Of a DNA stretch of 44,609 nt, positions 33,845 to 39,721 are shown piece by piece. The notes beneath the pieces are model-generated. The model saw only the letters and a list, made by a program, of their open reading frames with translations. It did no database searches and had not been told where the DNA came from. Source of the DNA: Streptosporangiales bacterium (GTDB lineage: Bacteria > Actinomycetota > Actinomycetes > Streptosporangiales > Streptosporangiaceae); assembly GCA_009380095.1 (NCBI GenBank), contig WHSL01000021.1, forward strand, positions 1-44,609. The letters run 5' to 3'. A program made the position numbers and the translations under genes. Within the stretch, counting starts at the first letter, position 1. Every line of letters begins with the position of its first letter.

Positions 33845-35362
33845 TCAGTCGACGTCGACCCAGCCGAGGGTGCGTTCGACGGCCTTTTTCCAGCCGGCGT
33901 AGCCGTCGTCGCGGCGGGCCTTGTCCCAGGCGGGCTCCCAGCGCTTGGACTCGTTCCAGTTGGCCCGGAGCTCGTCGGTGTTGCTCCAGAAGCCGACCGC
34001 GAGCCCGGCCGCGTACGCCGCGCCGAGCGCCGTGGTCTCCGCCACCACCGGGCGGCTCACCGGCACCCCGAGGGTGTCGGCCTGGAGCTGCATGCACAGG
34101 TTGTTGGCGGTGACGCCGCCGTCCACCTTGAGCACGTCCAGGTGCACCCCGGAGTCCGCCGCCATCGCCTCGACCACGTCGCGGCTCTGGTAACAGATCG
34201 CCTCCAGGGTGGCCCGGGCCAGGTGCGCGTTCGTGTTGAACCGGGACAGCCCGACGATCGCGCCGCGCGCGTCGGACCGCCAGTACGGCGCGAACAGCCC
34301 GGAGAACGCCGGCACGAAGTAGATGCCGCCGTTGTCCTCCACCTGGGCCGCGAGGTTCTCACTGTCGGCCGCACCGCTGATGATGCCGAGCTGGTCGCGC
34401 AGCCACTGCACGGCGGACCCGGTCACCGCGATGGAGCCCTCCAGCGCGAACACCGCCGGCTGGTCGCCGAACTTGTAGCACACCGTGGTGAGCAGGCCGC
34501 TGCGCGAGCGGACCAGCTCGGTGCCGGTGTTGAGCAGCAGGAAGTTGCCGGTGCCGTACGTGTTCTTGGCCTCGCCGGGGGCGAAGCAGACCTGGCCCAC
34601 CGTGGCGGCCTGCTGGTCGCCGAGGTCCCCGGTGAGCGGCACCTCCCGGCCGAGCGGCCCGCCGGTGGTGGTCGTCCCGTACCCGGCCGGGTCCGAGGAC
34701 GGCCGGATCTCCGGCAGCATCGCCCGCGGGATGCGGAACAGGGCGAGCAGCTCGTCGTCCCAGTCCAGCGTCTCGAGGTTCATCAGCATGGTGCGGCTGG
34801 CGTTCGTCACGTCGGTGACGTGCACCCCGCCGTTGACGCCGCCGGTGAGGTTCCACAGCAGCCAGGTGTCCGTGTTGCCGAAGATCGCGTCGCCGCGTTC
34901 CGCGTCGGCCCGTACGCCGTCGACGTTCTCCAGGATCCACTGGATCTTGCCGCCGGAGAAGTACGTGGCGGGCGGCAGCCCGGCCTTGGTACGGATCGTG
35001 TCGCCGTGCCCGTCCCGCTCCAGCGCCGAGGCGATCCGGTCGGTACGGGTGTCCTGCCACACGATCGCGTTGTAGTACGGCCGGCCGGTGCGCCGGTTCC
35101 ACACCACCGTGGTCTCGCGTTGGTTGGTGATGCCGAGCGCGGCGAGGTCCGCCGCGGTGATGCCGGCCTTGTTGAGCGCGGTCTGCAGCACCGCGCTGGT
35201 GCGTTCCCAGATCTCCACCGGGTTGTGCTCCACCCACCCGGCCCGGGGGAGGATCTGCTCGTGTTCGAGTTGGTGCTTGGCGACCTCGTTACCCCCATGG
35301 TCGAAGACCATGAAGCGGGTGCTCGTCGTGCCTTGGTCCACAGCACCGACAAAGTCGGGCAT
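33845..35362 (-). CDS. glpK: Glycerol kinase
   Basis: 505 residues from the ATG at 35362, with GGGAGGA upstream. FGGY-family landmarks are the phosphate-binding [13 protein letters not shown] at the N-terminus, [27 protein letters not shown], the glycerol-contacting region around [12 protein letters not shown], and [18 protein letters not shown] near the C-terminus. It phosphorylates glycerol to sn-glycerol 3-phosphate with ATP. It is the second gene of a glpF-glpK operon (18-bp gap), divergent from glpD. The 40 residues of open frame upstream belong to the glpF region. Confidence 0.97.
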
Positions 35363-35381: not shown

Positions 35382-36227
35382 CTAGGCCTTGGCCTCGCTG
35401 CCCTCGGTGGTCTGCGCGGCAGGGGGCTCGACCGTCCCCTCATCGGGCAGGTAGCGCTCGACCAGGTACTTGTAACCCGCGGCACCGAGCAGCCCGCCGA
35501 GCAGGGGGGCGACGATCGGCACCCAGAAGTACAGGTCGCCGTACTGATCCTGCCAGGCGGTCTCGTACCCGGTCAGTGCGATGACGAGGCGAGGGCCGAG
35601 GTCACGGGCCGGGTTGATCGCGTAACCGGCGTTGGTACCCCAGGCCATGCCGATGGCGACGACGACGAGGCCGATCATGAACGGGGTCAGGTTGCCGAGG
35701 TTGGGCAGCACGTTCTTGGTGTCGGTCAGGGCCATGACCAGGAACAGCAGGATGGCGGTGCCGAAGATCTGGTCGCGGAAGCCGCCCCAAAGGGTGACAC
35801 CGAGCTCGGGATCGTAGTTGCCGGGTGCCGTGACGAACACGACCTGCGACTTGATCCCGAGGTTCGGGTCGAAGGCGTTCAGCACCTCCGTGTAGTTCCA
35901 CCGGACGATCATCGCCGCCACGAACGCCCCGGCGAGCTGAGCCACCATGAACGGCAGCACCTTGCGCCACGGGAAGTCACGGAAGACGGCCATCGACAGT
36001 GTTACGGCCGGGTTGATGTGCGCACCGCTGATCCGCGCGGCGACGTAGACGCCGAAGACGACGCCGAAGCCCCATCCCCAGGCGATGCTGTCGTGGTCGC
36101 CCAGGGCGCCGCCGGTCGCCACGACCTGGGCGACCACGGCTGTACCGAAAAGGATCAGGATCATCGTGCCGGCGAACTCCGCGCTCAGCTCACCGAGCAT
36201 GCCGGTGCGCTTGAACCGCTCAGCCAC
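35382..36227 (-). CDS. glpF: Glycerol uptake facilitator (aquaglyceroporin)
   Basis: About 281 residues from the GTG at 36227, with GAGGA just upstream; earlier in-frame starts give non-conserved sequence. The two half-helix motifs are intact: HINPAVT in the first half and [10 protein letters not shown] in the second. The Asp after the second NPA box is the GlpF-type feature that widens the pore for glycerol. Six membrane spans and a hydrophilic C-terminal tail are visible. It passes glycerol across the membrane for trapping by GlpK. Confidence 0.95.
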
Positions 36228-36341: not shown

Positions 36342-36402
36342 ACCTTCGATCGTGATGTGGGCAAGGTCACAAGCCATCGCCCCTGCGGAAGGGGAGATTC
36401 AC

Positions 36403-38013
36403 GTGGGTATGACCGGGCGCTTGGACTCCGGCCGGCGGCGGGATCTGCTGCACCGTCTGAGCACGGAGCGGTTCGACGTACTGGTGATCGGGGGCGGTGT
36501 GACCGGGGCGGGCGCCGCGCTCGACGCCGCCGCCCGCGGTCTCCGGGTGGCGCTCGTCGAGGCCAGGGATCTGGCCTCGGGGACGTCCAGCCGGTCCAGC
36601 AAGCTCGTGCACGGCGGGCTCCGCTACCTGGAACGGCTCGACCTGAAGCTGGTGCGCGAGGCGCTGAAGGAGCGTGACCTGCTGGTCAGCCGCATCGCCC
36701 CGCATCTGGTCAAGCCGATCTCGTTTCTGTATCCATCGCGCCGCCGCATGTTCGAGCGCCCGTACGTGGGCGCCGGCCTGGTGCTGTACAACGCGCTCGA
36801 AGGGCTGAGACGGCCGGTCCCGTACCACCGCCATCTCTCGGCCACCCGCGCGCGCAGCCTCGCGCCCGCGCTCAAGCGGGACGGCCTCGTCGGCGGCATG
36901 CTCTACTACGACGCCCAGGTCGACGACGCGCGGCACACGCTCACCGTGGCGCGGACCGCGCGGGCGCACGGCGCGCTCATCGCCACCCGGGTCAGCGCGC
37001 TCGAGCTGCGCCGCGAGGACGGGGCGTTCGGCCGGGTCAGCGGGGTGCGGGTGCGGGACGAGGAGTCCGGCGCCGAGTTCGAGGTGGCCGCCCGCGCGGT
37101 CGTGCCGTACGGGGCCATCGACGCCGACACCGGCATGATCCTCCGTACGGAGCGCAGCGTGCTGTTCATCATCCCGTGGGGACGGCACTGGATCGTCGGC
37201 ACCACCGACACCGACACCGACTTCGACGGCGACGACCGGGCCGAGCCCACCGCCACCGAGGCCGACGTGGACTACCTGCTGGCCCAGGCCAACACGGCGC
37301 TGGAACGGCCGCTCACCCGCACCGACGTGGTCGGCGTGTACGCCGGGCTGCGCCCGCTGGTGGCGGCCGACGACGCCTCGCCCACCACCCGGCTCTCCCG
37401 CGAACACGTGGTGGACGTACCCGTTCCCGGGCTCGCGACGATCGCCGGCGGCAAGCCGACCACGTATCGGCTGATGGCGCGGGACGAGGTGGACGCGGTG
37501 CTGGCCGACTACGACCGGTGGGTGCCGGCCTCCGTCACCGACCGGCTGCCGCTGGCGGGAGCCGAGGGGCTCGCCGGGGTTCAGGCGGAGGCCCGGCGGC
37601 TCGCCGAGGACCACGGGCTGACCGTGCCGGTGGTGGAGCATCTCATCGAGCGGTACGGCACGCTGGCGCTCGAGCTGTTCGATCTGATCGACTCGGACCC
37701 GGGCCTCGGCCGTCCGCTGCTGGACGGGCACCCGTACCTGCGGGCCGAGGCGGTGTACGCCGTGACGCACGAGGGCGCGCTGCACGTCGAGGACGTGCTG
37801 GCCCGCCGGACGCGGCTGTACATGGAGTCGAGCTCGCGCGGCGCCGCCGCCGCGCGGGAGGTGGCCGGCCTGATGGCCGGGCCGCTCGGCTGGGACACCG
37901 CCCAGGCCGAGGACGAGGCCGCGCGCTACATCGCGGCCGTCGAGGCCGAGGCCGCCGCGTTGCGGGCGCTCGATGAGGACGCCGTGGCGCCCGGACCTCT
38001 CGGTGCCGCCTGA
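36403..38013 (+). CDS. glpD: Aerobic glycerol-3-phosphate dehydrogenase, apparently internally deleted
   Basis: About 536 residues from GTG 36403 (GGGGAG six bases upstream) or ATG 36409. FAD-binding VLVIGGGVTGAGAALDAAARG and ASGTSSRSSKLVHGGLRYLE are intact. So are ILRTERSVLFIIPWGRHWIVGTTDTDTD and AGLRPLVAADD. Family members oxidise glycerol 3-phosphate to DHAP and pass electrons to quinone. Between EVAARAVV and VPYGAIDADTG, near residue 234, the usual stretch of about 35 residues is missing. From family knowledge, that stretch begins NATGVW and ends RASKGVHIV. The frame is kept. If the assembly is right, part of the FAD/substrate wall is absent and activity is doubtful. Confidence 0.88.
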   Translation: MGMTGRLDSGRRRDLLHRLSTERFDVLVIGGGVTGAGAALDAAARGLRVALVEARDLASGTSSRSSKLVHGGLRYLERLDLKLVREALKERDLLVSRIAPHLVKPISFLYPSRRRMFERPYVGAGLVLYNALEGLRRPVPYHRHLSATRARSLAPALKRDGLVGGMLYYDAQVDDARHTLTVARTARAHGALIATRVSALELRREDGAFGRVSGVRVRDEESGAEFEVAARAVVPYGAIDADTGMILRTERSVLFIIPWGRHWIVGTTDTDTDFDGDDRAEPTATEADVDYLLAQANTALERPLTRTDVVGVYAGLRPLVAADDASPTTRLSREHVVDVPVPGLATIAGGKPTTYRLMARDEVDAVLADYDRWVPASVTDRLPLAGAEGLAGVQAEARRLAEDHGLTVPVVEHLIERYGTLALELFDLIDSDPGLGRPLLDGHPYLRAEAVYAVTHEGALHVEDVLARRTRLYMESSSRGAAAAREVAGLMAGPLGWDTAQAEDEAARYIAAVEAEAAALRALDEDAVAPGPLGAA

Positions 38014-38127: not shown

Positions 38128-38814
38128 ATGCAGCATGACGATCGCGGCCGCGGCAAGCGGCCGCTCCTGACCTTCAGGCTCGACGGCGAGCTACGACGCC
38201 AGCTGGATCGGCGGCTGGGCACGGAGGGCCGCACGCTCTCCGAAGTGATCAACCGCGGCCTCCGGGAGTACGTGGGCCACGTCGACCCGCGCCCGATGGG
38301 CGGGGCCTCCGCGCGGCGTGCCGCCGGGCCGGTCACGGCCGTCGCCAGCCCCGCCGATCTCGTCCTCCCGCCGCAGATCGTGGCGTTGCTGAAGGACCTC
38401 AGGGAGTCGGGGGAGAGCGAGCTGCTGTCCGCCTCGCTGGCGGCCCTGCACGAGAAGGGCTGGCCGCTGCGCCCGCTCGCCGAGGCGCTCGGCATCAGCC
38501 GGCAGGCCGCCCAGGCGCGGATCCGCCGCCCGGTGCCGGACGAGGTGCGGCGGCGGGTGCCGGCGTACGTGCCGCCGCCCCCGTACCCGCGCCGCCGGCC
38601 CGCCGCGCCGGGCGCGCGCCGCCAGCACTTCACCGTCAAGATCGACCGCGGGTTACGCACCGCGGCCCGGCACAAGGCCACCCACGAGGGGAAGTCGCTG
38701 ACCCAGATCGTCGAACGGATCCTGCGCCGCTACCTGCGGCACGGGCTGCCGGACGAGCCCAGGCCGCCGATCGAGCTCGGCGACACGACCCCCACGCGCC
38801 CGTCCCGGCGCTGA
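38128..38814 (+). CDS. DNA-binding protein with RHH-HTH-RHH architecture
   Basis: 228 residues from an ATG with GGAAGG upstream. An N-terminal ribbon-helix-helix-like segment (about 12-49) has the strand LLTFRLDGEL and helices ending SEVINRGLREYV. A central helix-turn-helix-like segment (about 97-134) contains LAEALGISRQAAQARI. A second ribbon-helix-helix-like segment (about 166-204) has HFTVKIDRGL and SLTQIVERILRRYL. Basic, Pro-rich linkers join them. RHH proteins normally bind DNA as dimers, so two RHH units in one chain could form an intramolecular pair or bridge two sites. No toxin gene is adjacent. Function unknown. Confidence 0.82.
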   Translation: MQHDDRGRGKRPLLTFRLDGELRRQLDRRLGTEGRTLSEVINRGLREYVGHVDPRPMGGASARRAAGPVTAVASPADLVLPPQIVALLKDLRESGESELLSASLAALHEKGWPLRPLAEALGISRQAAQARIRRPVPDEVRRRVPAYVPPPPYPRRRPAAPGARRQHFTVKIDRGLRTAARHKATHEGKSLTQIVERILRRYLRHGLPDEPRPPIELGDTTPTRPSRR

Positions 38815-38896
38815 CGTTCCGTACGCCGGGCGGACGGATCGTGATACGGCATTATCAAGTCTTTGACGGGCCCGCCGACTCTGGTTGCCTCGAAGC

Positions 38897-39721
38897 ATGG
38901 CCGACGAGAGCGCAATTCCCGCAGGCATCGAAGGCATCGACACGAGCAGGCCGAGCATCGCCCGGCTGTACGACTACCTGCTCGGCGGCACCCAGAACTT
39001 TCCCATCGACCGGGAGATCGCCGCCAAGACGCTGCAGGTCGTTCCGCAACTCCGCGACGTCGCCCGGGACAACCGGGCGATCCTCATCCGCGGCGTCCGG
39101 CACATGGCCGAGGCCGGCATCCGGCAGTTCCTCGACCTCGGCTCCGGGCTGCCCACCGAGCAGAACACCCACCAGGTCGTGCAGCGCGTCGCGCCGGACG
39201 CCCGGGTGGTCTACGTGGACATCGACCCGCTGGTCAGGGAGCACGCGCTGGCCCTGCTCGGCGACTCGCTGCATGGAGACACAGCGCACACCACGCTGGT
39301 CTCCGGCGACATGCGCCGGCCCGAGGAGATCCTCGCCCACCCGGAGGTACGGTCCCTGATCGACTTCTCCGAGCCGGTCGGGCTCATGATGCTCGGGGTG
39401 ATCCACCACCTGCGGGACCACGAGGACCCGGACGGCATCACCACCGCCTACCGGGAGGCCCTCGTGCCCGGCAGCCTGTTCTTCCTCACCCACTTCTGCG
39501 CGTCGTACCCCGACGCGCTGGAGCTGGAGAAGACCATGCTGGCCACGCTCGGCACCGGACGGTTCCGTACCGAGGAGGAGATCGCCGCGTACTTCTCCGG
39601 CCTGGAGATGCTGCCGCCGGGGCTCGTCGCGCTGCCGGAGTGGCGCCCGGACGCGCCGCTCAGCGGCGCGCTCAGCGACAGCCAGCGGCTGATGATGGGC
39701 GGTATCGGGCGGAAGACGTAG
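38897..39721 (+). CDS. SAM-dependent methyltransferase, DUF574 family
   Basis: 274 residues from the ATG at 38897; an in-frame TTG lies at 38885. Family landmarks are SRPSIARLYDYLLGGTQNFPIDRE near the N-terminus, RGVRHMAEAGIRQFLDLGSGLPTEQNTHQV (SAM-binding loop DLGSG), VVYVDIDPLV and LMMLGVIHHLRD. This family is largely confined to actinomycetes, where many copies occur per genome and substrates are mostly unknown. It is monocistronic, ending at a perfect 13-bp hairpin. Confidence 0.93.
   Translation: MADESAIPAGIEGIDTSRPSIARLYDYLLGGTQNFPIDREIAAKTLQVVPQLRDVARDNRAILIRGVRHMAEAGIRQFLDLGSGLPTEQNTHQVVQRVAPDARVVYVDIDPLVREHALALLGDSLHGDTAHTTLVSGDMRRPEEILAHPEVRSLIDFSEPVGLMMLGVIHHLRDHEDPDGITTAYREALVPGSLFFLTHFCASYPDALELEKTMLATLGTGRFRTEEEIAAYFSGLEMLPPGLVALPEWRPDAPLSGALSDSQRLMMGGIGRKT

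Follow-up and report, generated by a model that had tools for sequence, protein, structure and literature searches.

FAD-dependent glycerol-3-phosphate dehydrogenases (GlpD) are represented, among the best sequence and structure matches to the protein described here, by the E. coli enzyme (PDB 2qcu) and a Bacillus halodurans protein (3da1). The three share the DAO and DAO_C domains and the same order of motifs. The GlpD encoded in the window (the whole stretch of 44,609 nucleotides analyzed here, from a Streptosporangiales bacterium) differs in lacking a block of about 32 residues, marked in its homologues by the motifs G[VI]W and S[KR]GxH and situated within the DAO core. Its nearer relatives are the operon-type GlpDs (such as L006, L086, L087, and that of Trebonia kvetii, L009), whose genes often adjoin glpK and in some cases glpF. 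Each of the 16 compared has the block, spanning VVxCxGVW (slightly variable) through RMSKGVH, a segment that the window protein does not have. A Mycoplasma lacking glpD has been reported (PMC4357767), and no published account of a glpD lesion of the present kind was found among the titles and abstract openings listed, beyond which we make no claim.

The window glpD is a single, continuous open frame on the forward strand (positions 36352 to 38013, with the stop codon at 38011 to 38013). Its probable start is the GTG at 36403, with AGGGGAG a few bases upstream, which would place the gene at 36403 to 38013. The product matches DAO (PF01266; E = 3.9e-42), with the N-terminal FAD GxGxxG motif present as GGGVTGAG, and DAO_C (PF16901; E = 6.5e-35; profile positions 1 to 125 of 126). 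The first-pass annotation described a direct passage across a missing block with the frame intact, and this is borne out by the one open frame, which passes from EVAARAVV to PYGAIDADTG and reads across the junction as GAEFEVAARAVVPYGAIDADTGMILRTERSVLFIIPWGRHW. The junction itself is GTCGTG at 37099 to 37104 on the forward strand; it codes for Val228-Val229 when the frame is numbered from 36418, and the hexamer occurs only there on the coding strand of the gene. Conserved sequence flanks it on both sides, from the FAD GxGxxG region onward in the 5' part (36418 to 37098, forward strand; alignment and conserved-column count) and through the rest of DAO and DAO_C in the 3' part (37105 to 38010, forward strand; Pfam, alignment, and conserved-column count), while the G[VI]W...S[KR]GxH block is absent. 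Against NCBIfam NF008899, which has a curated score of 360 bits, the window GlpD scores 301.4, and intact GlpDs, at 360.4, 349.6, and 345.2, also lie at or below the cutoff.

To establish what normally occupies the junction, we aligned the window protein with homologues drawn from one genome per species (best 80 of 546) and from best-match loci in 297 genomes of the same family, giving 113 rows besides its own and 107 distinct proteins. In all 107, the stretch between two anchors includes a block in which both G[VI]W and S[KR]GxH occur. The 16 nearest orthologues read CAGVW (CTGVW in L101) there instead of the ATGVW of the first-pass annotation, whose KGxH motif does fit their KGVH. The anchors are separated by 27 residues in the window protein versus 51 to 67 in the homologues, the shortest of these values (51, in L093) reflecting a row ended by its contig end. 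The separation is 59 residues, or 32 more than in the window, in 92 of the 107, and the remaining 15 hold 24 to 40 residues more than the window protein between the same anchors. The observation of an in-frame gap is confirmed, but its size is 32 codons (96 bases) rather than about 35. Pairwise alignments with operon-type loci agree, with a junction gap of 32 residues in 8 of 10 and 33 in the other 2; these 10 include two pairs from the same genome, and two of the alignments have smaller extra gaps. In the phmmer alignment to characterized GlpD structures, the match likewise splits into two stretches at the junction.

The window protein belongs to the operon-type group, at 63 to 67% identity to its 16 nearest members, which include proteins of Trebonia kvetii and of metagenome bins assigned to Streptosporangiaceae. 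The split between the group and other GlpDs has a support of 0.98 in a tree of 37 proteins, the exact placement of the window protein having a support of only 0.53. Within the lost motif, operon-type GlpDs (L006, L007, L008, L009, and L086 to L102) have CAGVW (with the L101 variant) and RMSKGVH in place of ATGVW and RASKG[IV]H, respectively, the forms seen in most other GlpDs; RMSKGVH is found also in L045, L069, L078, and L080. By sequence comparison, CAGVW/RMSKGVH is a group-specific change.

Upstream of glpD lie two genes on the reverse strand, glpF at 35382 to 36200 (glycerol facilitator, MIP family; PF00230, E = 2e-48, profile 7 to 221 of 222; start approximate) and glpK at 33845 to 35362 (glycerol kinase; FGGY_N and FGGY_C over nearly full profiles; probable start at MPDFVG). 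Both look complete by Pfam profile coverage, in keeping with the normal appearance first ascribed to them. In tblastn comparisons with eight distinct relatives' loci carrying operon-type glpD, glpK was found in six and glpF in three; neither was found beside glpD in L008/L145 or L143. The window glpK is 68 to 84% identical to the glpK adjoining glpD in six relatives. A small gene encoding a DNA-binding-like protein of 228 residues follows glpD (38128 to 38814, forward strand). To the eye, both of its ends resemble ribbon-helix-helix-type stretches, and its central part matches HTH_23 weakly, just below the cutoff. By tblastn, the gene also adjoins glpD in four relatives (L006/L147, L008/L145, L143, and L144); no homologue was found beside glpD in L009, L146, or L148, and the L007 sequence does not extend far enough to decide. 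Its product may be a regulator tied to operon-type glpD. Beyond it, an S-adenosyl methyltransferase of the Methyltransf_19 family is encoded at 38885 to 39721 (forward strand; nearly full profile length; E = 1.2e-88).

We searched for other GlpDs without the block using the whole protein as query against 297 genomes of the family and short junction-spanning queries against 394 genomes of the class and 297 of the order, sets that overlap. At an E value of 0.001, the short queries matched in 323 of the 394 class genomes and 296 of the 297 order genomes (71 and 1, respectively, had no match). Among the matches listed in the class and order searches, the only end-to-end match across the junction was the window itself. 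Nine listed matches began clearly 5' of the junction; the four that were opened (G658, G076, G436, and G331) all have the block, and the borderline matches outside these four are G418, G363, and G445 in the class search and G208 and G143 in the order search. A natural clade of block-less GlpDs, which would have countered the proposed deletion, is thus not supported: the opened borderline loci are intact and the matches listed from the three genome sets contain no second case. The genus of the window is represented by one genome in the collection, a circumstance that would suit a loss of the block across the whole genus or a wider lineage using such a GlpD. We nevertheless consider such a loss extremely improbable, since the 16 nearest operon-type orthologues all have the block and the tree places the window gene among them; the loss therefore falls at most on the window's own branch.

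The junction had also been interpreted as the scar of recombination between short repeats coding for Val-Val. GTCGTG codes for Val-Val at the junction, and relatives have Val-Val codons at each end of the block or close to it, so that an in-frame slip is readily pictured. Yet in the 16 intact orthologues, exact matches at the required offset extend over no more than 2 to 7 bases (2 or 3 for half of the orthologues), and no longer recombination repeat was found at that offset in any of them. In only two, L086 (7 bases) and L009 (6 bases), is the match of a kind seen at fewer than 5% of gene positions. On the sequence, the deletion may have arisen by slippage from one Val-Val pair to another, a route that is unproven.

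We then examined how well the remainder of the gene is conserved. For this we used 174 columns whose conservation in 89 other GlpDs is 97% or higher. The window protein has 8 gaps at these columns, compared to none in 15 of the 16 intact orthologues and 1 in the sixteenth; by this count, its gap exceeds chance expectation. At the same columns it has 5 substitutions, compared to 5 to 12 in the orthologues. Where all 16 orthologues share one residue, the window protein departs from it at 10 of 208 columns; each orthologue left out in turn and treated likewise has 0 to 8 substitutions in 198 to 206. We do not take this excess as relaxation because the window branch is longer (its nearest relative is at 67% identity, and those of the others are at 77 to 96%). 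For codon-position differences, the third-position ratio is 1.8 to 2.1 in four pairs that include the window and 1.7 to 3.3 in five intact pairs, and GC3 on either side of the junction is 0.93 to 0.95. Advanced pseudogene decay is not supported, given the retained conserved columns and the codon-position differences like those of intact pairs; outside the gap, glpD shows no clear decay. The good conservation of the remainder is compatible with a recent deletion, a faulty assembly, or a protein that retains some use, and it fits assembly error or a working protein as well as it fits recent loss.

An assembly artifact, in which the gene is intact in the organism and 96 bases were dropped from the draft (a mixture of strains in the sample or a difficult GC-rich stretch being conceivable causes), would account for the apparent constraint on the rest of glpD and for the occurrence of the deletion in no other genome among the matches listed. 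The draft consists of 413 contigs and has a contamination estimate of 2.8%. We hold this explanation to be rather unlikely, though deserving of serious weight. The 2- to 7-base matches at the offset in the orthologues do not suggest a long repeat at the junction; matches of this length are shorter than assembler words. Nor is the missing piece found on another contig. With an intact orthologue as query and E values up to 10, the block was not found elsewhere in the genome; the query matched the two halves in the window, two further contigs described below (C304 and C356), and four weak matches. One weak match, on C332 (33% identity; E = 0.002), covers the block part of the query. It is probably not the missing piece: it lies in a separate 447-residue frame that also has a weak N-terminal match, and it looks like another flavoprotein. 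With the window DNA as query, no near-identical second copy was found in the genome. Two weak controls also speak against an artifact. Of 10 further window proteins, 8 have Pfam matches, mostly to nearly whole profiles (although TPP_enzyme_M is covered only over 2 to 85 of 137). In a gap control comparing 341,905 bases of this genome with 392,141 bases of relatives (alignments with an identity of 50% or more and a length of 120 residues or more, in which few genes were comparable), there was one other gap of at least 20 residues on the side of this genome, a gap of 22 residues in the C304 GlpD relative to L007, which we attribute to an insertion in L007 because the window protein also has a gap of 19 there.

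The consequences for the protein were considered with AlphaFold2 models. The intact orthologue L006 is predicted with a mean pLDDT of 88.4 and a pTM of 0.90, with values below 50 only at residues 345 to 352. In this model the lost block is a helix (229 to 239) and a strand (245 to 258) of the DAO fold, with mean pLDDT values of 79 to 93. Six residues within it (G229, W231, S250, K251, G252, and H254 in L006 numbering) are the same in all 32 intact GlpDs that were aligned. The lost strand and ATG-type motif presumably touch FAD, as we assume for this flavoprotein family, with the KGxH stretch near the active site. The window GlpD is predicted with a mean pLDDT of 76.4 and a pTM of 0.79, and pLDDT falls below 50 at residues 231 to 254, 256 to 258, 268 to 277, and 308 to 328, as well as at 56 to 59 and at the C-terminal end. 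Low pLDDT expresses the doubt of the model and is no measurement, and the prediction is biased by an input of the window sequence plus 32 rows, all of which contain the block. The model is overall still GlpD-like in its Foldseek matches to GlpD structures, with a TMq to E. coli GlpD (2qcu_A) of 0.73 (root mean square deviation [RMSD], 5.2) versus 0.81 (RMSD, 3.6) for L006. These models suggest that the window GlpD has likely lost activity. That the shortened protein remains active, or is an altered enzyme, strikes us as very improbable: the frame is kept exactly, the remaining conserved residues are retained, and the Pfam matches cover DAO_C and the greater part of DAO, but the six lost residues are invariant in intact GlpDs, the predicted structure is less confident 3' of the junction, and no clade of such architecture appears among the matches listed.

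The search for a second glpD, suggested with the original observation, returned two further homologues. The GlpD on C304 keeps the block and matches DAO and DAO_C over nearly full profiles; it is about 53% identical to the window GlpD, which lacks the block. It clusters with other actinobacterial GlpDs (L103 and L109; support, 0.996), outside the operon type, and neither glpF nor glpK was found within the 16 kb taken around its gene. A third, more distant homologue lies on C356 (L004:727-2979), in a 751-residue frame. The GlpD part of that frame begins near residues 257 to 274, and the N-terminal residues, which have no family match, may be a frame extension or a fused domain. The proposal that the organism relies on another glycerol-3-phosphate dehydrogenase thus gains an intact candidate at the sequence level, while flux through the C304 enzyme is inferred. 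The short protein could also be expressed, stable, and selected beside the C304 enzyme, either as a GlpD with a remodeled flavin site or as a noncatalytic regulator of glycerol use, a scenario that we judge very improbable.

Our preferred explanation, which we regard as probable, is that a recent 96-base in-frame deletion inactivated the operon-linked glpD and that the intact C304 GlpD covers for it. On this account, the deletion would have struck the gene recently, in the window's lineage, removing the G[VI]W and SKGxH piece from the core of the DAO domain. The product would then be unable to fold or bind FAD properly and would be inactive. Glycerol-3-phosphate produced through the intact GlpF and GlpK would be oxidized by the C304 GlpD and perhaps also by the C356 GlpD, leaving the window glpD as a young loss-of-function allele.

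Unless it is an assembly error, the lesion is an ordinary one for a gene, and it bears on no problem of long standing. A genuine deletion would offer a modest but clear example of a loss-of-function allele of recent origin, in which an essential-looking block is gone, nearly all other conserved residues are kept, and a paralogue is available. Domain-based annotation would probably still call the gene GlpD, and metabolic models could therefore count a probably dead enzyme.
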